Below, one piece after another: positions 31,158-41,553 of a stretch of 64,000 nucleotides of DNA. The DNA comes from Symbiodinium sp. CCMP2592. Its lineage: Eukaryota; Sar; Dinophyceae; Suessiales; Symbiodiniaceae. The notes below the pieces were generated by a model. The model searched no databases. It was given only the letters and a program-made list of their open reading frames with translations, and was not told where the DNA came from. A program made the position numbers and the translations under genes. Numbering within the stretch: position 1 is the stretch's first letter; each line of letters starts with the position of its first letter. The stretch spans positions 671,501-735,500 of the forward strand of contig CAJNDT010001868.1 in NCBI GenBank assembly GCA_905221615.1. The letters run 5' to 3'.

Positions 31158-31323
31158 AGTTAATCATACTCGAGCCCCAAGCACCTGCATGATGTAGCTA
31201 AGATGTCCTTGTAGAAGGTAGATGAAGAGCAGCTTGACGCACACGAACGTATTTTGGCTCAAGACACAAAACAAGCGTGATCACTACCGTGTCTTGAAAT
31301 CATTGATTGCGTTGCAATTAACT
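31158..31323 (+). repeat. 5' LTR
   Basis: 166 bp with 7-base inverted ends AGTTAAT...ATTAACT rather than the usual TG...CA. Ends may be one base shorter (GTTAAT...ATTAAC), because the outer A and T could be coincidental. Contains ATTTTGGCTCAAG at 31251-31263. Confidence 0.93.
31251..31263 (+). promoter_or_regulatory. spliced-leader-like sequence in the 5' LTR
   Basis: ATTTTGGCTCAAG is identical to the last 13 bases of the conserved 22-base dinoflagellate spliced leader. It is not followed by a GT splice donor, so it is not an SL RNA gene. The simplest reading is a relict of a trans-spliced transcript fixed into the element. Confidence 0.7.
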
Positions 31324-31340
31324 GGTTAACAGCCTCAGCT
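31323..31340 (+). promoter_or_regulatory. possible primer-binding site
   Basis: TGGTTAACAGCCTCAGC directly follows the LTR. It begins TGG as expected for pairing with a tRNA CCA end. The matching tRNA is not identified. Confidence 0.4.
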
Positions 31341-32187
31341 TAGCTTGGTGTAAGTAGTGTAGGATCCTACCGACGCCATAGCACCTTCCGTGTCGCTCCC
31401 TTAGGGTAGAGCTTTAGGTCTAGCAAAGACCTGCCCACTTCCATACTACTTTCCATATCCTGCACTGTCAATCTCCTGGGGTTAGAGCCAGAACCCTACA
31501 GTTGAGATCCCAACCAGAGCGTACATCGCAGCCTGGTTTTGCACATTATCTGTGAGGTCCAAATCCGCTGCGTGAATCGCCTGCTTGCCCAGGCATCCGC
31601 GTGGTAACCTTCTTCGGGTTTCTCAAAGCCCTGCCTTAGCACCTCTCCCGTAGTCCCGTTCACGGACGAAGGAGGCCAGGCCTTGTGGTGCAACAGGCGA
31701 TCCAGTAGAGAACAGAACACAACCGCAACGTGTCAGGAGTGCGATTGCATCCCAGCAACCCTCCTGTAAGAGTTCCGCTGAGATTGGAGGTTGATTGAGA
31801 TTTCTGGTTTGGGTTAGCGTGGGTGTTTCCCGTGCTCGGCCTTTGAACCGCTTCCTCAGTCCCTAATCACAGCTGTAGACTGCCTCGGCAGCACAGCACA
31901 ACAACCAAAAGGCAAACACAGAATCAATTCCAAATCCCTTCGGCTCTTAGTCTGCCAGCCAGGGGGTATTCCTAGTTGACAGTTGTTCATCTGGGTTGTC
32001 AGTGGGTAATCAAGGAGGTTATCCGGATTAAGCTTTCAGAGGCAAGGCATTGAGGCGTGCTTACGCAGCCAACGGGGGATAATTGGGTAAGGCCTTGAGA
32101 AGAGCCTTACGGCAGGGTTGACGAGCATCCACCGGGTTTGGGTTAGGTGTTCGTTGGCCAACAATTTTCCTCTGAAGTCGTCACTGC
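31324..32187 (+). other. long 5' leader of the retrotransposon
   Basis: About 860 bases between the LTR and the first ORF, with no supported coding sequence. It may hold packaging or translation signals; none is recognised. Confidence 0.5.
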
Positions 32188-33612
32188 ATGGGTGAGCGCG
32201 GAGGCCTCACTCCTGAGTCGCGGTTTGCATTGTACGCGGCCCTATTGCTTGGCGAGGAGAAGAGGGGAGGTGGCGGCTCTAGTGGAAGAGCAAGGCGTTC
32301 ACTTCACCTTAAGATTATTGGAGGATACGCTTCACAGTTGCGCGAGCTTGCTGTGTTGAGTGGGGCGGATAGGGAGAACCTTGGGACTGCAGACAGCTAC
32401 GTCTCTTGGTTGAAGCAGAACACGCCAGAGCGTGGCACTGCTCTTCCGTCCTTTTTGGCTTCGGAGGTTCCACTTTTCCCACGGCATACTGAATCGACGC
32501 CAATCACTCCGGGCCCTGATAATACATCCTCCAATACAATCTCCGGGGCTGTACCCGTGAGCGCTACTGCTGCGTCTTCGCCATCTAGCGTTCCTGGTAA
32601 TACAATCTCCGGGGCTGTACCCGTGAGCGCTCCTCGAGAGCCACCGTATCCACCGCCTTCGATTCGTGCCTTGGGTACTAATTCGGAAAGGGTTGCGGGA
32701 TCTTCAGGGCTAGAGGCTTCCGGGTCGCTAAGTGTTCTTCCGAGTGGGAGAAATTTGCCGCCCCAGCCTCCTGTTCCAAAAGCTAAAACAGGAGTCACGC
32801 CATCTACTGCACCAAACGTCAGACCATATCTCACGCTCGGACAGCGAGCAGCGGTTATCTCACCTAACAATCCGTTGCTTCGTGTGCGGTCGAGATCTCC
32901 ACCACGGTCCTCTTCGATCCCATCTGGATCGGCAGGTAGCGGGGTTGGACCCGAGAGGGAGCGCGAGGCAGCCGAGGAGATTCTTGAATCAGCCGAGGAG
33001 GCTGCGGAGGAGTCTCTTGATTCAGGTGCGGCTGCAAGCAGCGGGGTTGGACCCGAGCGCGCGACAACAGGCAGCGGGGCTGGACCCGAGAGGGAGTTGA
33101 GGTTCCGACCTGTGGCGCGTCAGGTGACTTCGCTTAAGGTTGCGGAGGGATTGCTTCCGCCGGGTACTTCTGTGCTGCTGTCATTGGACATTCATTTGGT
33201 CGCTGACCGCGACGAGGCGAGGACATCTGCGTGCCTTGAGAGACTCTTGCGAGAGCACTCGGACTTGGCTGTGATTTTCTGCTCGTACGCGGTGAAGCAA
33301 AAGACCATTGATAAGGCGGTCCAGTGTATCCACCGTATTTGTGATCGGACGATTGTGCGGCGCCCTTTGACCTTTCCCATTTTCTTCACGACATCCAAGA
33401 CTGCGCCGGGCACAGGCAAAGGAGCACAATTGTCTAAGTTGGCGGATATCTTTAGCCGGTCGCGCCCCGCTCCACTGACTTTTTTGTATCACGTGGACGA
33501 TCAAGATCCGATTTGCAAGAACGTGACATCCTACGGCCATCACGGTGTGCATTGGGCGGAGGAGGACCCGCGTGCTTTGGATCAGATCGTGTGGGAGCTC
33601 TGCTGGCTCTAG
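32188..33612 (+). CDS. accessory ORF of the retrotransposon with C-terminal HAD-like domain
   Basis: 474 residues from ATG to TAG, upstream of gag-pol and in a different frame. Residues ~100-310 are low-complexity P/S/E-rich with internal repeats: NTISGAVPVSA twice, and SGVGPERE/SSGVGPERA/GSGAGPERE. Residues ~318-474 look globular and have a HAD-superfamily layout: LSLDIHLVADR (motif I, with His336 in place of the second Asp), VIFCSYA (Ser366, motif II), GKGAQLSKLADIF (Lys, motif III) and YHVDDQD (Asp437-Asp438, motif IV). HAD enzymes are mostly phosphohydrolases; loss of the second Asp suggests altered or lost catalysis. Ty1/copia elements normally lack such an ORF. The HAD assignment is from motif inspection only. 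Confidence 0.7.
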   Translation: MGERGGLTPESRFALYAALLLGEEKRGGGGSSGRARRSLHLKIIGGYASQLRELAVLSGADRENLGTADSYVSWLKQNTPERGTALPSFLASEVPLFPRHTESTPITPGPDNTSSNTISGAVPVSATAASSPSSVPGNTISGAVPVSAPREPPYPPPSIRALGTNSERVAGSSGLEASGSLSVLPSGRNLPPQPPVPKAKTGVTPSTAPNVRPYLTLGQRAAVISPNNPLLRVRSRSPPRSSSIPSGSAGSGVGPEREREAAEEILESAEEAAEESLDSGAAASSGVGPERATTGSGAGPERELRFRPVARQVTSLKVAEGLLPPGTSVLLSLDIHLVADRDEARTSACLERLLREHSDLAVIFCSYAVKQKTIDKAVQCIHRICDRTIVRRPLTFPIFFTTSKTAPGTGKGAQLSKLADIFSRSRPAPLTFLYHVDDQDPICKNVTSYGHHGVHWAEEDPRALDQIVWELCWL

Positions 33613-33754
33613 CCGCCGACTGGCAAAACAGAAAGGCAGAGGAAGACTGCAAACGCAGCTCCTCGGGTTTGGGTTCGTGTTGAGGGTCAACTTTGACGGT
33701 TGGGGTGAAGTATTTTTACAACCCTTAGACCTCGGTTGAACCGCTGTTCCCATA

Positions 33755-36700
33755 ATGCCTCTAGCATCACAACTGGGATTCGAAGAATCCTCACTGGAAA
33801 TTTCATCGTCAAGCACGCCCCCTAGGGCTCAAGCACTTAGCGTGCGCCCGGAGGCAGCTAGGCAGTCGGATTCATCAAGTTCGGGGCCGATTCGGAGGAA
33901 CCGGGCTAGATCATTGTCGTATGGACCCGCATCGAGGTCTTCATCCCTGCAACCGGCACCAACCTTTGCAGCGAATGTTGGCCCTGCCCGTAGTCAGAAC
34001 CCAACCGGCCCGAACACGAGCCATCAGGAGTTGCACTTGCATCAACATGCCCATCGGCAGCAGGTCCTTCAGGTTGGGGTTGACCCGGTAGCCCATGCGA
34101 ACATGCAATCCGAAGCAACATCAGCCATCATGAACGCCAGAGCTGAGACAGCGGCCGTGTTTGGCGAAGCCGAAGCAGTGATTCAGTCTCTAAGATCAGA
34201 GAACCAACAGCTAGGTGCCCAGGCCGCTGCGATTCAGGGTGAGTCGTATGCCGCCATACAGGCGCTAAGGTCCGAAAACCAGCAGTTGGGTTCACGCGCT
34301 TCGGTGATTCAGGGTGAAGCTGAAACGGTGATCGGAAACCTCCGAACTGAGAATCAACAGTTAGGGGAGATGAACCGTGAGCTCAACCAGAGACTCGAAA
34401 AGCAAGCTAAGATGATCCTTGAGCAGCAAGAGTTATCTAAGGCTATGCATCAGCAGCTAATCGCGCTTCAGTCGCATGTGCAAGCTGCCGAACCAAAGAA
34501 CCCAAGCATCCCTTCATCGGCTATCCCCGCGAGCTCTACCCAAAATGGCGCGGATCAGGCTGCGTCTGCATTCAACGCATTGCAGGCACTCGCGGGTGAA
34601 GTTGGGGGAACAATGCGAAGGATTGAACAGGCAATTGAGGTAGCCCTTAGTCCCAAAGCCAAAGCAAAGAAGCAGAAAGCTAAAGCCGAGGCTACAGCTA
34701 GGGCCATTGCACCATCAGTTGCGTCTCCAATTCCCGCTAAGGCTTCCGGTTCTAGTGGTTCGGTTGCCCCGGGTCCGGTTGAGTTTGGATTGCCACCGTA
34801 CCAATGCGGCCGTAAGAGCATCTTCACGGGTAGATTGCATTCCGCAACACCCGCTTCTCCACCTCCTCCACCACAGAAGCTAAAGCCCCAAGTCTTCGAC
34901 ATAGCAGATGAAGATGACTTTGATGAGCATGGCGAAGATGAGGGTGATGAGGACGGAGAAGATTTCGAGGATGATCCAATCGTCCCCGTTGCGGCTCACG
35001 AGCCTGAAGATGACAGAGATTACGAGTCTAGCATTTATAAGTACAAAGACCTGAAAGACATCAAGCTTCCCCAAATTCCGGGTTCTAGCGTTGAGTTCAG
35101 GGCTTACCGCAATTCGGTGCTAACACAGATTGCGTCAATCGATTGCAGCGGCAAAGCCGTCCTGTTGAAGTGGCTTCAGAAGAGCCTTGATCCATCAGGG
35201 AGCATTGCATTGACACGGTCGCTTCAGCAGGATTGCGAGGGTTTGCCTAGACTTGATGGGTGGATCTCCGCATGTATCAGTGATGCGAAACACCTAAAAG
35301 GTGAATGGGGATTGCAAGCGCAGTCGTACTTGGAAAGGTGTCATGCGTCTGGAACGATGCCATCGGGTCGTGCACTCTTGTCCATTCTTAGCAGAAGATA
35401 CCGGATAGATAAAGTGCGCGGGCCATTGGTGACACTACAATCCTTGTTCGATTTAGAACCTGACTCATTTTCCTACCAATCGCTTGTAGCCTTCAAACAA
35501 CGCGTCGAGTACGTGTTGAATGGCTTACCGGAGCGGCAATGGCCAGATGCCGAAACAATGTTTTCCTGGATCTACTCACGGCTAAAGGGATGCAGGATGC
35601 TTTCACGCACAATTGATCGGGTCAAAGATGCCAAGCCGGGTTCCAAGCGTAGGACATTTGAGTACATTTGGAACGGGCTCGAAGAGGTTCTTGCAGAAGT
35701 GCGCGAGGATCGTAACGAGCAAGCGCTCAAGGATTCGCTCAAAGAGGATTCCAAACAGAAGCCGAAACCAGATGCAAATGCGAAAGCAGCCGCGGCCAAG
35801 GCTACGCCCGCCGCTCCTGCTGCAAAGGCAAATGCAAAGGCTAAGGCCAAAGGCCAAGGCAATGACAAGCCCCCGAAGGCCCCGAGCAAAGCAACTCCAG
35901 GAGTCACCGACGCCAATCGTGGTGCCGGTGAGGGTGCCAACAGGGACAAAGGCAAAGGTAAAGGGAAAGGCGGAGGTAAGGATGGCAAGGCTAAACCTCA
36001 GAAACCTCCAGCTGCAAAGGATTCGTCAGCTGAACAATCCGGCCAAAGGCCAGCGTGCTTCTTCTATCCAAAAGGAACATGCACTAGGGGAAAGGATTGC
36101 CCTTTTGAGCATGTAGATGCACCAAAGAAAGCTGCTCCATCAAAGGCCGCCCCAAAGGTGCCTGCCGGAGTCGCCATGTTAGCAGCCGCGTCGACGGGCG
36201 CGAGCGCATGCAACATCCCTTCATCATTTGTCCGCGGTTTCAAAGCCACATGTCGCTTGATCACCGCTCCCTTTCGTGTGTTTGCCCGCTTTGCGGCAGC
36301 ACTTTCATTTGCATTGCCCGCAACCGTGCATCATTCGCATGATCGCATTGCCGCGACAGTCAGTAGACCTAACTGTTCAGGGGGGTCGTACTTCCTTGAT
36401 TGGGTTGCTGATTCTGGGGCAGGGAGAAGCCTGCTAAGCCAATCCGCGCTTGCAGATCAGGGCATTTTGACTGATATGTTCAGCGATCACATCCGGTCAA
36501 CCAAGCCGTTGCAGTTTGAAACCGGGAATGGTGTGACGAGCAGTGGCACCTTCCTTACTACAACGAGCGATGCCTTTGGATCAGTAGAATCCTATGTTCT
36601 GCAAAGCTGCCCGGTAGTGCGGTCTTTAGGCCAACTAGTAGAGTTGCAGCGAAAACCTTTCGTTTGGCTTCCTGGTAGCATGCCGTTCTTCGGTAGTGAC

Positions 36701-39700
36701 GAAGATTGCGTCCAGATCACTTGGGATTCGGATCGTGTCATTTATGCCCATAAGGTTGATGACTATGTTCCGGTATTTCGTGAGCAGATCAGGTTTGGTG
36801 GTGATGGTTTGCACAGAGCCTTAGCCGCTGGTGAGTCTGCTCCGGCAGCCCCAGCAGAGGTTCCTGCGCCCGCTGTCCCAGCAGAGGACCCTCCTCTCCC
36901 AGCTCCCGCAGCACCCCCTCCACCTGATCCAGGGGAAGGTTCCGGTGCCGACGATGAGGGTGATGAGGATGCACCAACCAAGGCTCAGCGGCTAATCACT
37001 GAAGCCCAGAGTTTACAGCATCGCTTAACGCATATGCCAAAGAACCCCTACTGTGATGTCTGCAGTCGGAGTCGAATGCTAAAGAAGCGAACGGCGAGGA
37101 CGCGCTATGCAAAGTGTGATGATGAGTTAGATCCGGTTGAGGAGTTCGGTCAACGGATATCGGCTGATTTCATCATAGTGCACAAAGACGCTAAAAGCAC
37201 TGAAACCGTCGTCCTGACTGTGAGGGATGAGGCTACAGGGTACATAAGCGCTTTCCCGCTAGTGTCCAGGCACGAAGACGGGGTGGTACGATCATTGTTA
37301 TCCTTTCTCGGTAGGCGCGCTTCTGGACCTTGTGTATTGTTCAAGAGCGACAATGCGCGAGAGCTCCTCGCCGCATGTGCGACGTTGGGGTTTACTTCAG
37401 AACCAAGCCTTGAGCGTAGATGGCCTCACAACTCAGTTCTCGAACGGGAGATCCGTACCATCGAGGAGTGTACAAGGGCTCTCCACATTGCGGCCGGTTT
37501 TCAGTTGCATTCGGGTCTTTGGGTTCACACTGTTCGCTATGCGGCACACACCATTAACCTTTTCCACCCTGCGGTCGGGATTGAGGGTTGTCGGTATGCG
37601 AACGCGATTGGATCCGAGTTTGGTGGCATGAAATTACAACTTGGTCAACTAGTCTATTACAGACTTGACCCGGCAAACCGTGAGAAGTTTCAGGCATCAG
37701 CAGCACCTGGTGTTTTCGCAGGTTGGCGGTTCGATAGCGGTCCATCATCATTCAGAGAAGTCTACTATGTCTTGGATTATGGTAAGCTAAAGAACCGTGA
37801 GCCGGGGTACGAAAAGGCGATCTCCGTCCCTAGAGAGGAAATCCACGTTCCCCGCGGCAATCCCATCCTCCCGATGTTCACCGCTGCAGAAGCTGCTTTG
37901 TCTAGTTTCACGAAAGCTGAGTATGAAGCCATCGAATTTCTTGATGTGCCGTTCAGCACGGTAGCGCCGTCAACACCCGTTGCCAAGCGCCACGAGTACA
38001 TTACTTTGGACAGACTTATGCGACTAGGTGCAACACCTGGTTGTAAGGCCTGCAAGTTCGATGGAACAGTACACACGCCAGTATGTAAGGCAAGATTTGA
38101 TGGTTTGATTAAAGCCGAGAAGATTGCCGCGAGCAAGTCAGTCAGAGACGCTGCACCGCCTGATGTTGAGCGCCCTGATCCTTTGGCGGAGTCTGCACCC
38201 GCAGCCCCCGAAGGTGATGAGGATGCTCCAGAGCGCGCGAGCTCCTCTGCTGGCCCACGGGCTCCAGCTGGTGTTGTAGTTCAGTCTTCCGAAAGCAAAG
38301 TTCCAACAGGTGAGTTTGGTTTGAGTGCAAGGTTTCTCGCAAACGAGAGAGCGCGTAACAACACCAGAAGGGTGAAGGAACTTCCAGGGGAAAATGTTCT
38401 TATCGAGTACGGTTGTGAAGACGAGTCTGAGATAAGAGATGCTTGTGAACGTTGTACGGTTCATTGTGTTAGTCTGTCCCAGTCAACGCTGGACTTGACT
38501 TCGCAGGATGACATGCAGCAAGTTGTTTCCCAAGCAATCCCAGGTGTAGATGCTTGGTTCACCATACCATGCACACATATGTCTTCACATCAAGCCGTAC
38601 ATCGTGAGTCCCAAAGTCCCAAGTATGCGCGAAAGATTGCACAAAGGCAAGCAACATCCAAGCGAATGTTGGTTTTGGCCCTAAATGTTGCCGACCATAT
38701 CATTGAGCAGGGGGGTCGGGTTTCGTTTCAGTGGAGTTCCGATTCAGGGGTGCTTGTGCAGCCTGAGTGGATCGACTTCGCTTCGAAACACGAGCTCTCC
38801 AGTGTAGCCTGTGTCAGCGGTAACAAAGCCACCACCATTGCTTCGAACTCCAAGCGAGTACTGGAGCACTTCGCAAAGGTGTCAACAAAGGAGTCATCAG
38901 AGATCAATGCAACCAACATCAAAGCGTATGAGTTTGCGGATCTCGTGATACAATCCTTGTTTCCCCAGAGGTACTTCAAAAGTGTCCCCAATCTTGGTAA
39001 AGCTAGCGCGCTTATCACCAAGAATCTCTCTCGCCGAGAATGGCAAGCTGAGCCGAAGGCGCTTGAAGCCATCGCTCAAGAAGCTGAGGGGTTGCGCCGA
39101 AACGGCACATGGGATGACACGACGGCCATGCCTTTGCATGAGCTGAGAAGTCAGGCTAGGTCTCAGGGACGCAAGCTTCGCGTCGCAGAACTGATGACCT
39201 TGTGCGGGGTAAAGCATGCCGAACTTGCACCTGAATTTCAAAAGTTCAAAGGGAGAATTGTTTATAGAGGGGATAGGGTTTTGGATGAGTTTAACAATCT
39301 GGTTTTCTTCGAAGAGACCAGTACGACTCCAACGGGGTTAATAGCCTTGAACGCCTCCCTCTTCTGGGGTTGCTTACCAGAGCACTCTGTGTCATGCTCT
39401 GACGCAATCCAAGCATACCTCCAATCAGAGCTTAAAGAAGAGACATACGTAATCCTGCCTAGGGAGTTATGGCTCCCCGGCTGGGAGGAGCGTTTTGGAG
39501 CGCAAGCGAGAATAGTCGTTCGACTCCGCAAGAGCTTGTACGGCCACCCACAGGCCGGACGGCTCTGGCAAGAGTATTTGTCTAGGATTTTGATCTCATT
39601 AGGCGGAAAGGAGTCCCAGGAGTTTCCAAGCAACTGGTTCTTTGAGTACAAGGATGGGGTTCTCATCTTAAACATTTACGTCGATGATTTGAGTTTGTGC

Positions 39701-40045
39701 GGATTAACAAAATTGCACACGCCATTTTGGCAAGCGTTGAGGGCGAAGGTCAAACTTGATCCCGAGTGTTTCATAGGTTCTGAGGGTGTTCGGATCTTAG
39801 GTAGACTGCATTGTCGGTACGATGAACCATCGTCGACCACAATGGCTTTTAAGATGCCTGAGTATGCCGAGCAGATCGTCCAAACCTATTGCGAGATCAC
39901 CGGGACAACGCCCGACAAGCTTCGTCGAGTGACCACGCCCTGCATCGCTGAATCGTCAATGACCGACGAGGATATCTCAGCGCGAGCTCCACGATTCAGC
40001 ATCACGCATCTTGATGCGCTGTTTGTGGTTAGCTCGTCTCTGTAG
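33755..40045 (+). CDS. Gag-Pol polyprotein of the Ty1/copia element (Gag, CCCH finger, protease, integrase, RT)
   Basis: 2096 residues. Residues ~125-245 are coiled coil with three SENQQLG-type repeats. An acidic tract (~385-425) precedes a Gag-like helical region (~435-660) and a K/A/G-rich basic tract. A CCCH finger (C768-x7-C776-x5-C782-x3-H786) stands where CCHC is usual. Protease: VADSGAG at 885-890. Integrase: HHCC finger (H1089, H1093, C1100, C1103) and catalytic D1138, D1199 and E1230. Residues ~1570-1760 hold an extra domain with a PCT motif at 1605-1607. Reverse transcriptase covers ~1765-2080, with YVDD at 1975-1978. The frame ends prematurely for a copia polyprotein; RNase H continues in the overlapping frame that starts at 40011. 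The encoded enzymes reverse-transcribe and integrate the element. Confidence 0.95.
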   Translation: MPLASQLGFEESSLEISSSSTPPRAQALSVRPEAARQSDSSSSGPIRRNRARSLSYGPASRSSSLQPAPTFAANVGPARSQNPTGPNTSHQELHLHQHAHRQQVLQVGVDPVAHANMQSEATSAIMNARAETAAVFGEAEAVIQSLRSENQQLGAQAAAIQGESYAAIQALRSENQQLGSRASVIQGEAETVIGNLRTENQQLGEMNRELNQRLEKQAKMILEQQELSKAMHQQLIALQSHVQAAEPKNPSIPSSAIPASSTQNGADQAASAFNALQALAGEVGGTMRRIEQAIEVALSPKAKAKKQKAKAEATARAIAPSVASPIPAKASGSSGSVAPGPVEFGLPPYQCGRKSIFTGRLHSATPASPPPPPQKLKPQVFDIADEDDFDEHGEDEGDEDGEDFEDDPIVPVAAHEPEDDRDYESSIYKYKDLKDIKLPQIPGSSVEFRAYRNSVLTQIASIDCSGKAVLLKWLQKSLDPSGSIALTRSLQQDCEGLPRLDGWISACISDAKHLKGEWGLQAQSYLERCHASGTMPSGRALLSILSRRYRIDKVRGPLVTLQSLFDLEPDSFSYQSLVAFKQRVEYVLNGLPERQWPDAETMFSWIYSRLKGCRMLSRTIDRVKDAKPGSKRRTFEYIWNGLEEVLAEVREDRNEQALKDSLKEDSKQKPKPDANAKAAAAKATPAAPAAKANAKAKAKGQGNDKPPKAPSKATPGVTDANRGAGEGANRDKGKGKGKGGGKDGKAKPQKPPAAKDSSAEQSGQRPACFFYPKGTCTRGKDCPFEHVDAPKKAAPSKAAPKVPAGVAMLAAASTGASACNIPSSFVRGFKATCRLITAPFRVFARFAAALSFALPATVHHSHDRIAATVSRPNCSGGSYFLDWVADSGAGRSLLSQSALADQGILTDMFSDHIRSTKPLQFETGNGVTSSGTFLTTTSDAFGSVESYVLQSCPVVRSLGQLVELQRKPFVWLPGSMPFFGSDEDCVQITWDSDRVIYAHKVDDYVPVFREQIRFGGDGLHRALAAGESAPAAPAEVPAPAVPAEDPPLPAPAAPPPPDPGEGSGADDEGDEDAPTKAQRLITEAQSLQHRLTHMPKNPYCDVCSRSRMLKKRTARTRYAKCDDELDPVEEFGQRISADFIIVHKDAKSTETVVLTVRDEATGYISAFPLVSRHEDGVVRSLLSFLGRRASGPCVLFKSDNARELLAACATLGFTSEPSLERRWPHNSVLEREIRTIEECTRALHIAAGFQLHSGLWVHTVRYAAHTINLFHPAVGIEGCRYANAIGSEFGGMKLQLGQLVYYRLDPANREKFQASAAPGVFAGWRFDSGPSSFREVYYVLDYGKLKNREPGYEKAISVPREEIHVPRGNPILPMFTAAEAALSSFTKAEYEAIEFLDVPFSTVAPSTPVAKRHEYITLDRLMRLGATPGCKACKFDGTVHTPVCKARFDGLIKAEKIAASKSVRDAAPPDVERPDPLAESAPAAPEGDEDAPERASSSAGPRAPAGVVVQSSESKVPTGEFGLSARFLANERARNNTRRVKELPGENVLIEYGCEDESEIRDACERCTVHCVSLSQSTLDLTSQDDMQQVVSQAIPGVDAWFTIPCTHMSSHQAVHRESQSPKYARKIAQRQATSKRMLVLALNVADHIIEQGGRVSFQWSSDSGVLVQPEWIDFASKHELSSVACVSGNKATTIASNSKRVLEHFAKVSTKESSEINATNIKAYEFADLVIQSLFPQRYFKSVPNLGKASALITKNLSRREWQAEPKALEAIAQEAEGLRRNGTWDDTTAMPLHELRSQARSQGRKLRVAELMTLCGVKHAELAPEFQKFKGRIVYRGDRVLDEFNNLVFFEETSTTPTGLIALNASLFWGCLPEHSVSCSDAIQAYLQSELKEETYVILPRELWLPGWEERFGAQARIVVRLRKSLYGHPQAGRLWQEYLSRILISLGGKESQEFPSNWFFEYKDGVLILNIYVDDLSLCGLTKLHTPFWQALRAKVKLDPECFIGSEGVRILGRLHCRYDEPSSTTMAFKMPEYAEQIVQTYCEITGTTPDKLRRVTTPCIAESSMTDEDISARAPRFSITHLDALFVVSSSL
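36056..36112 (+). other. CCCH-type zinc finger in Gag
   Basis: The residues are ACFFYPKGTCTRGKDCPFEH. The spacing C-x7-C-x5-C-x3-H is that of RNA-binding CCCH fingers of cellular mRNA-binding proteins, not a retroviral CCHC knuckle. It probably serves RNA packaging. Confidence 0.85.
38500..38930 (+). other. PCT-motif domain between integrase and RT
   Basis: AWFTIPCTHMSS, a helix-rich stretch, then GGRVSFQWSSDSG. The arrangement (hydrophobic strand-P-C-x-x-x-S, then strand-E/Q-W) is reminiscent of a Rossmann-like methyltransferase core, in which PC is the motif IV of cytosine-5 enzymes. No SAM-binding motif was identified, so a catalytic role is unproven. Confidence 0.35.
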
Positions 40046-41309
40046 AGCTGACATCGCATTTGCTGTAACTCGCCTAGCTTCCAGGGTCACTCGGTGGACC
40101 GCCTGGGAGGACAGACAAGTGCTTAGACTTGTGTCGTATATTCATCACACCAGAGATGTTTGCATGAATGCCAGTTGCTCTTGGGATGCCGCTCCCGAGC
40201 TACGGGTGTATACAGACGCTGACTTCGCAGCCTGTCCCTACACTTCACGTAGCACGTCCGGGATTGTAGTCCACATAGGCACAGGTCAGCATGCATTCCC
40301 CGTGATGTGGCAAAGTCGCAAGCAAACGTCTGTTGCGAGGTCGACGCCAGAGGCCGAAATGATCTCAATGGCATCAGCCATGTTTTCCGAGGTCATAAAC
40401 CTGCAGACGTTCTTACAGTCAGCCTTCAAAAGCACAGTGCCGATCATCTTCTTCCAAGACAATGAAACTGTTTTGGCCATCCTGAAGTCAGGATACAGTC
40501 CAAAGCTTCGCCACTTAGGGCGCGTGCACCGCGTGAACGTGGCAAGTATGGCAGAGATCTTTGAGCAAGAAGATTTTTCGGCTACTTACGTGAACAGCAA
40601 GGAGCAATTAGCTAATGGTTTGACTAAGATCATCCCTCCTGCTGAGTGGTCTGATATGCTCACACAGTTGTGCCTTCACGAAGGTGTCCCTCACAGTGCG
40701 ACCGTCTCAAAGGTCGTAGCTGAGGAAGCAGAGCGTTTTGCAAGCTCACTGCCTAGGAAGATCACACAAGAAGACCTTGTGCAGCTTTTGTCGTACTTGC
40801 CAGGGGAGAGCGCCGTGCGCCCCTCTGCAAGTGAGGCAATGTGCTTCACCACCGGTGCGTTCGCGCACGGAGGTGGGATCGCAGGTTTAAGGCAAAATGT
40901 AACCCTCTTCCCAGTAGTCACTGCGGTTTTGTGCAGGTTCATCCGTAGGGTGTTGCCTAAGCATAAGTTTACGGCAGTGATGTTGGCCAAGAATCAAATT
41001 ACTTTGACTCATAAGGATTCTTACAACGAGCCATGCAGCAAGAACGCTGTAATCCCACTTGAAGTGTTCGAGGGGGGCCACGTGTGGGTGCAGTCACAAG
41101 ACGGTGGCTACCCATGCCCAGACCTCAGTCGAGGTGAGAAGGGCGAGATCCTTAAATGGCCAGCGATCTTCGATCCAAGACGGTTACATGCGACGACCCC
41201 TTGCACGAAGGGTGACAGAATCGTCATAATTGCCTTCACACCTAGAAACGTGAGCAGGCTGCCCGTCGACAGCCAGCTGAAGCTGCGAGAGCTTGGATTC
41301 CACTTCTAA
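40011..41309 (+). CDS. RNase H plus C-terminal 2OG-Fe(II) dioxygenase-like domain
   Basis: 432 residues from position 40011 (a TTG; the frame really continues from RT). Residues 1-230 are copia RNase H, with YTDADF at 67-72, STPEAEM at 111-117 and FFQDNE at 147-152. Residue 202 is Asn in QLANGLTK, where Asp is usual. Residues ~275-432 are an added double-stranded beta-helix-type domain: HKDSYNE (H334, D336 as HxD), FEGGHVWVQ, FDPRRLHAT (H393) and GDR (R403) before IVIIAFT. HxD...H plus a distal Arg is the iron and 2-oxoglutarate ligand set. The HxDSxN...GG...H...GxR order recalls TET/JBP DNA oxygenases. Substrate is unknown. The N-terminus overlaps the previous ORF in another frame. Confidence 0.8.
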   Translation: MMRCLWLARLCRADIAFAVTRLASRVTRWTAWEDRQVLRLVSYIHHTRDVCMNASCSWDAAPELRVYTDADFAACPYTSRSTSGIVVHIGTGQHAFPVMWQSRKQTSVARSTPEAEMISMASAMFSEVINLQTFLQSAFKSTVPIIFFQDNETVLAILKSGYSPKLRHLGRVHRVNVASMAEIFEQEDFSATYVNSKEQLANGLTKIIPPAEWSDMLTQLCLHEGVPHSATVSKVVAEEAERFASSLPRKITQEDLVQLLSYLPGESAVRPSASEAMCFTTGAFAHGGGIAGLRQNVTLFPVVTAVLCRFIRRVLPKHKFTAVMLAKNQITLTHKDSYNEPCSKNAVIPLEVFEGGHVWVQSQDGGYPCPDLSRGEKGEILKWPAIFDPRRLHATTPCTKGDRIVIIAFTPRNVSRLPVDSQLKLRELGFHF

Positions 41310-41379
41310 TCGGAGTGGCTATTCCACCAAGTAGGTAGTCTGCGTAACTAAGTTCAGTGTAGCGTTTCACGCTGTCTTC

Positions 41380-41387
41380 AAGGGGGG
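41380..41387 (+). promoter_or_regulatory. polypurine tract
   Basis: AAGGGGGG ends exactly where the 3' LTR begins, as expected of the plus-strand primer for reverse transcription. Confidence 0.9.
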
Positions 41388-41553
41388 AGTTAATCATACT
41401 CGAGCCCCAAGCACCTGCATGATGTAGCTAAGATGTCCTTGTAGAAGGTAGATGAAGAGCAGCTTGACGCACACGAACGTATTTTGGCTCAAGACACAAA
41501 ACAAGCGTGATCACTACCGTGTCTTGAAATCATTGATTGCTTTGCAATTAACT
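41388..41553 (+). repeat. 3' LTR
   Basis: 166 bp, identical to the 5' LTR except for one base. Carries the same spliced-leader-like ATTTTGGCTCAAG at 41481-41493. Followed by TATAT. Confidence 0.93.

Follow-up and report, generated by a model that had tools for sequence, protein, structure and literature searches.

A putative TET/JBP-like dioxygenase domain at the C-terminal end of a copia retrotransposon polyprotein in the dinoflagellate Symbiodinium

Within a 64,000-nucleotide stretch of DNA from the dinoflagellate Symbiodinium sp. CCMP2592 (assembly GCA_905221615.1, contig CAJNDT010001868.1, positions 671,501 to 735,500; hereafter the window), we examined a copia retrotransposon whose coding region continues past RNase H into a further domain with the residues of Fe(II)/2-oxoglutarate (2OG) dioxygenases. 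The domain recurs in the host genome, and with moderate confidence we read it as a TET/JBP-like Fe(II)/2OG dioxygenase that is kept under selection at the end of Pol and would counter or alter the methylation-based silencing of the element's copies.

The C-terminal domain and its conservation

An initial annotation of the window had described an extra C-terminal region past RNase H with H334-x-D336, H393 and R403 (residues 350, 352, 409 and 419 when counted along the stop-to-stop frame). The letters and their spacing are as described there, confirming that a domain with the claimed residues is present at the C-terminus of the element. The proposed extent stood for the C-terminal region itself and was adjusted at its start, which by alignment lies slightly earlier, at about 40749.

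The genome of the host (1.098 Gb in 5383 contigs) contains at least 151 matches to the window domain at E <= 1e-3; 4964 candidates were obtained, of which 150 were scored, and copy numbers are lower bounds. Among the matches listed, 26 loci (L001-L026) are near-copies over at least 191 of 209 residues with 91-100% identity, the partial near-copies L027-L030 being left out of this number. The same C-terminal domain, which the initial annotation had proposed to look for in dinoflagellate copia elements, is a recurrent one. All but one of the 26 near-copies are without an internal stop, and eight have a single open frame of 2002-2539 codons running through the domain.

The conservation of individual residues was followed across 78 loci, found via similarity of the domain and not via its motif: the best 30 and 20 diverged loci were picked from the window-domain search, and the best eight and 20 others from a genome search with the Pfam family Tet_JBP. 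The domain was taken from 77 of them (85 profile hits, with those under 110 positions dropped and one row kept per locus), and 31 representatives are less than 85% alike. The first iron-binding histidine is found in all 77 loci and the aspartate in 76; where a letter is present, the distal histidine is kept in 74 of 75 loci, and the 2OG position holds arginine in 66 and lysine in nine of 75. Likewise, the representatives keep the first histidine and the aspartate in 31/31 cases and the distal histidine in 29/29 with a letter there, and the ligands are retained among rows whose identity to the leading row of the respective alignment is 20-44%. The iron ligands, whose conservation among related elements the initial annotation had singled out for checking, are therefore nearly invariant. 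The only locus without the aspartate, L039, has lost the distal histidine too, and its frame is still open; this copy appears to have decayed.

Purifying selection acts on the domain. For the 153 pairs formed by 18 open copies from the window family, the ratio of nonsynonymous to synonymous polymorphism (pN/pS) was 0.099 for the domain, 0.063 for reverse transcriptase (RT) plus RNase H and 0.156 for the linker. Furthermore, 21 of 30 chosen pairs from several families gave a finite synonymous distance (dS, exceeding 1 in a few of them), with ratios of nonsynonymous to synonymous substitution (dN/dS) of 0.03-0.18, and the other nine were saturated.

Predicted fold, family and pocket

The AlphaFold2 model of the domain (predicted local distance difference test, 80.1; predicted template modelling score, 0.82) predicts a 2OG-Fe(II) oxygenase fold. 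In each of two fold searches the best 50 PDB rows were nearly all 2OG-Fe(II) oxygenases, with NgTET1, TET2 and AlkB among the matches, in agreement with what the initial annotation had expected of a structure prediction; the double-stranded beta-helix was judged via these PDB matches of the model and not via its coordinates. AlkB, ALKBH5 and TET were level in the fold comparison (Z within 1 of each other), and the modelled fold by itself separates TET neither from AlkB nor from PHD2.

Sequence profiles were more selective. When the profile A3 (25 diverse rows) was run against all PDB sequences, three TET2 sequences were matched at E 9e-5, the next match being an unrelated protein at E 0.65, and neither AlkB nor prolyl 4-hydroxylase (P4H) appeared up to E 10. 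In the alignment of A3 with TET2, the family is matched to the HRDLHN and LHATTP stretches of TET2, of which LHATTP scores weakly by itself. TET2 was also ranked first in the PDB by the profile A4 (E 0.14). Within Pfam, Tet_JBP (PF12851, cut-off 34.9 bits) is the sole 2OG family that matches the domain. It was found in 4 of the 12 members of alignment A2 (best E 0.0032), in 7 of 10 scanned relatives (from 13 found; best E 8.7e-7), and in 4/8 and 3/6 element frames, the remaining three of the six being without the domain. AlkB (PF13532) and prolyl-hydroxylase Pfam families gave no match in the 12 members at E <= 10 with the HMMER filter in force. Against the whole genome, Tet_JBP gave 61 matches (best 2.2e-4), none above the cut-off, and a single one of the 14 control genomes, that of E. 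coli, matched too, likewise below it. All of the 28 checked among these 61 loci match the family profile, which was itself iterated over the same loci; over 185 residues, the window domain shares 36% identity with that of the best-scoring kind, L054 (E 2e-33). With TET2 alone below E 0.6 by the A3 profile, these comparisons support the TET/JBP-type reading that the initial annotation had offered.

The putative pocket was compared with that of TET enzymes at offsets computed from CcTet residue numbers, counted from the first iron histidine (H) and the 2OG arginine (R). According to PMC11040006, the H+5 residue of TET2 (Asn1387), NgTet1 (Asp234) and CMD1 (Asp350) bonds N4 of 5-methylcytosine (5mC), which Gly331 of CcTet does not, and an aromatic residue at R+6 (CcTet Phe391, TET2 Tyr1902) stacks on the base. 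In the present family, H+5 is asparagine in 77/77 loci, and R+6 is phenylalanine in 41, tyrosine in 26 and histidine in nine of 76. Moreover, asparagine occupies H+11, which corresponds to CcTet Asp337 and TET2 Thr1393, in 72/77. Judged from the aligned residues, two TET base-contact positions are kept, a pattern that would fit a base-flipping pyrimidine oxidase.

Several results weigh against this assignment. Every computed Tet_JBP score lies below the 34.9-bit cut-off; the window member alone reaches E 0.14, a Pfam scan of the whole window frame up to E 10 gave nothing, and precomputed annotation places PF12851.14 on only 4 of the 13 relatives. TET2 was not found in the PDB by the profiles A2 and A8, the latter being dominated by RNase H columns with a match to KDM4C (E 0.39), and the window domain as a single sequence gave no relevant PDB match. 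The top PDB match in Foldseek was PHD2, with CcTet at rank 8 among 50 rows, and the template modelling scores over the query were low (0.30-0.47 in the best 50 rows). The counterpart of a third TET contact, made by Arg393 of CcTet to O2 of 5mC (PMC11040006), is missing at the corresponding offset: R+8 is proline in the window copy. In addition, the six-frame genome search with Tet_JBP may miss a host TET gene that is split by introns. Because the Pfam cut-off was unreached in any scan made, we call the domain TET/JBP-like and not a certified member of that family.

A match to PHROG 274, 'DNA endonuclease V', in 2 of the 12 members (best E 0.0026) was set aside, its label being probably misleading; a like-named phage protein stands at rank 45 of the fold matches. 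Two scans of viral contigs gave no relative of the domain.

Substrate and competing explanations

In the mechanism that we propose, the polyprotein, or its RT-RNase H-dioxygenase part, would carry the enzyme to the element's own DNA. Its target there would be 5-methyl pyrimidines, and most likely 5mC, which either the host or a methyltransferase-like domain carried by an element would have written; their oxidation would counter or alter the methylation-based silencing of new copies. The initial annotation had likewise put forward, as suppositions, 5mC or thymine as the substrate, and escape from silencing or a mark on the element's DNA as the purpose. We prefer 5mC on three grounds: the pocket positions resemble those of TET2, methyltransferase-like domains are neighbours in several carriers (see below), and PMC11071213 reports uniform DNA hypermethylation for two Symbiodiniaceae. 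Counting against this substrate is its need for prior methylation, since fresh reverse-transcribed complementary DNA (cDNA) is without 5mC.

The main rival to 5mC is thymine, which a JBP-like enzyme would convert to 5-hydroxymethyluracil (5-hmU) on cDNA or integrated copies, giving these copies the abundant base mark of the host. Thymine is already present in fresh cDNA, with no methylation step required. PMC6723414 gives 5-hmU in place of 12-70% of dinoflagellate thymine and states that TET-family enzymes in general likely make it, and most repeats of Breviolum are enriched in it (PMC11071213). In principle, the group opposite the H+5 asparagine could be O4 of thymine just as well as N4 of cytosine. 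However, H+5 asparagine and an aromatic R+6 match the pattern of TET2, which reads 5mC; the profile search of the PDB, with no separate comparison to JBP, gave TET2, and several carriers also have a cytosine-methyltransferase-like domain. We regard the conversion of thymine as unlikely, although with an appreciable chance of being the true activity. Action on another substrate, either an RNA or DNA methyl group, such as that of N6-methyladenine (m6A), in the manner of AlkB, or a protein side chain, we rate as improbable. It would be consistent with the near-equality of AlkB, ALKBH5 and TET in the fold comparison, with PHD2 at the top of the Foldseek list and with the precedent of an orchid Ty3/Gypsy 2OG dioxygenase that has m6A demethylase activity (PMC9289625), but not with the Pfam scans of the 12 members, where Tet_JBP matched four and AlkB or prolyl hydroxylase none, nor with the A3 profile, which returned neither AlkB nor P4H up to E 10.

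It seems very unlikely that the domain is a pseudo-enzyme retained in Pol for a structural or DNA-binding role, as the open frame of L039 without its aspartate and distal histidine might suggest; ligands are lost in that one locus of 77 only and are kept across the 20-44% identical rows. Chance resemblance in a meaningless C-terminal read-through would agree with the interrupted frame of the window copy, and was rejected as having practically no probability in view of the long open frames of the eight near-copies, the purifying selection and the homologues with other retroelement types.

The element, other carriers and known systems

The element (31159..41553, about 10.4 kb) is bounded by 165-bp long terminal repeats (LTRs) and has the make-up of Ty1/copia retrotransposons, with integrase before RT, an RVT_2-type RT (Pfam E 4.3e-10, residues 1883-1989 of the long frame) and RNase H (Table 1); integrase and RNase H gave no Pfam match in the window frames and were read by eye from their motifs. 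The LTR pair, found by blastn of the two flanks, aligns over 166 ungapped bases at 99.4% with one mismatch. The window copy is interrupted, the long frame stopping at 40045 and the C-terminal part lying in a different frame. By eye, the element lies within a TATG microsatellite.

Table 1. Features of the copia element, in coordinates of the window
Feature	Position	Strand	Remarks
5' LTR	31159..31323	+	165 bp, GTTAAT...ATTAAC; TGG next, primer-binding-site-like
Spliced-leader 3' end, 13 nucleotides	31251-31263 (5' LTR), 41481..41493 (3' LTR)	+	sequence ATTTTGGCTCAAG
Long frame	33740..40045	+	gag-like part, protease, pre-integrase/integrase, methyltransferase-like spacer, reverse transcriptase (RVT_2); from list of open reading frames
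CCCH zinc finger, gag-like part	near 36056	+	Pfam, below its cut-offs only
Protease motif DSG	36407	+	by eye
Pre-integrase/integrase	about 37019-37471	+	by eye
Methyltransferase-like spacer, integrase-RT	38396..38977	+	homologous to cytosine-C5-methyltransferase-like domain of other elements
Second frame	39963..41309	+	448 codons stop to stop; RNase H, then TET/JBP-like domain up to stop
RNase H motifs	TDADF 40206, EAEM 40350, DNE 40455	+	by eye
TET/JBP-like 2OG-Fe(II) dioxygenase domain (predicted)	40749..41306	+	186 residues; family alignments A2/A3, AlphaFold2 model, fold and profile searches
H-x-D iron ligands	41010..41018	+	H codon 41010, D codon 41016; residues 350, 352 of stop-to-stop frame
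Asn at H+5	41025..41027	+	position of TET2 Asn1387; N in 77/77
Distal iron ligand His	41187..41189	+	residue 409 of stop-to-stop frame
2OG-binding Arg	41217..41219	+	residue 419 of stop-to-stop frame
Purine run AAGGGGGGA	41380..41388	+	abuts 3' LTR on its 5' side; polypurine-tract-like, read off sequence
3' LTR	41389..41553	+	blastn of both flanks

The 13-nucleotide end of the spliced leader has two matches in the window and none in 100 shuffles. A complete spliced-leader 21-mer was not found in the window with up to three mismatches allowed, and in the genome the 21-mer has 429 exact matches, the reversed control giving 0. The LTRs look as if the end of a trans-spliced transcript became built in.

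The position of the domain varies among its carriers. In the window type it forms the C-terminus of copia Pol; in L059 it is flanked by a weak integrase match (E 0.15) and by RVT_2, an arrangement that L060 and L075 share by eye, and in L063 it precedes integrase. At L081 and L077 the domain frame (Tet_JBP E 1.9e-4) directly follows the RT of a long interspersed nuclear element (LINE; RVT_1 E 1e-20): at L081:745-3000 and L077:1270-2229, a LINE with an endonuclease-like part and RVT_1 is followed by an in-frame stop and then by a frame of 320 residues with the TET-like domain, which we infer to belong to the LINE. The same domain frame occurs near LINE-like RT-tail sequence in L065 and L068. 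Other carriers are DIRS-like by eye, the RVT_1 match of L082 (E 0.006) being below the cut-off.

Three further loci were observed. At L067:852-1436 the frame of a divergent member continues into simple repeats; no RT was seen in its vicinity, and it may be a host-gene exon. The 315-residue frame at L069:885-1460 contains the domain; inspection of 2.6 kb by eye showed no transposon domain, and the frame could belong to a host gene or to a small element. At L022:2988-3350 a second match to the domain, 24% identical, lies on the minus strand in a frame next to one near-copy of the window element.

A tree of the domain was built from 26 of the 31 representatives, the truncated or frame-shifted L027, L029, L052, L070 and L073 being left out; its groups were labelled by eye, and L062, L074 and L078 after their relatives with flanks unread. 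Copia elements carrying the domain between integrase and RT group in a single clade (99/99) that excludes the C-terminal copia type, itself weakly supported as one group (78/79). This separation and the different positions suggest separate entries of the domain into copia, and a single origin with later moves could also account for them.

A cytosine-methyltransferase-like domain adjoins the TET-like domain in the DIRS-like and several other carriers. In L051-L058 and L071, where a gag-like part and an RT lie close by, the TET-like domain immediately precedes such a domain bearing PC and ENP motifs, and the two domains may form a methylate-then-oxidise pair; both motifs are intact in L054, L071, L044 and P0013. 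Pfam finds no family for the methyltransferase-like domain, and its only PDB matches up to E 10 were DNMT2 (E 0.24) and another cytosine methyltransferase (1.8). The spacer of the window element aligns with the sibling domain (A9 versus A7, hhalign) at a probability of 95% (E 3.5e-8, 172 columns; unrelated control 0.1%). The methyltransferase-like profile of the other carriers does not detect the window element, and the spacer reads IPC without ENP, the PPC/ENP motifs not being intact and most motif residues being lost. A degenerate methyltransferase-like domain is thus seen in the window copia, whereas Copia was reported to be without DNMT domains (PMC5890265).

The family resembles the TET/JBP dioxygenases (TET2, NgTet1, CMD1, CcTet) in predicted fold, in the HxD..H triad and 2OG arginine, and in a polar H+5 and aromatic R+6, TET2 being its sole clear PDB profile match. 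It differs from them in its length of only about 185 residues, its fusion to a retroelement Pol, its scores below the Pfam cut-off, the loss of the CcTet R+8 contact and the lack of a cysteine-rich region as judged by eye.

Fungal DNA transposons and Helitrons carry TET/JBP enzymes, proposed to counter methylation-linked suppression, and the same 2025 survey remarks that retrotransposons are without TET/JBP (PMC12730594). The element-borne TET/JBP enzymes that we found in print are these fungal ones; the present carriers differ from theirs in being dinoflagellate retroelements of copia, LINE-linked and DIRS-like kinds. LINE and DIRS-type elements of Symbiodinium are described as carrying methyltransferases (PMC5890265); these DNMT-carrying retrotransposons, known from Symbiodinium and charophytes, resemble ours in that purifying selection acts on a base-modifying domain within a dinoflagellate retrotransposon, and the main text of PMC5890265 contains the terms dioxygenase, 2OG, TET and oxygenase 0 times. 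The orchid Ty3/Gypsy element is likewise an LTR retrotransposon with a 2OG-Fe dioxygenase, and its enzyme differs in being of the AlkB family, acting on RNA and lying in an additional open reading frame (PMC9289625). Among the titles and abstract openings of the open PMC papers that our searches listed, with longer lists covered in part, we found no report of the domain in dinoflagellate retroelements.

In dinoflagellates 5-hmU has been described since 1973 (as listed among the references of PMC6723414), and the accessible parts of PMC11071213 and PMC11453091 identify no dinoflagellate enzyme that makes it. A wider idea, which we consider doubtful, is that dinoflagellate retroelements repeatedly took up a methylate-and-oxidise cassette and that their dioxygenases supply modified chromosomal bases, possibly 5-hmU; if true, the dinokaryon would owe a base chemistry typical of it to transposons, either as its writers or as the source from which it was borrowed. 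In a single dinoflagellate, one domain family occupies several positions in copia elements, occurs in DIRS-like elements and also lies next to a LINE; it supplies concrete, testable candidates for base-oxidising enzymes in a lineage whose DNA is hypermethylated and rich in 5-hmU.
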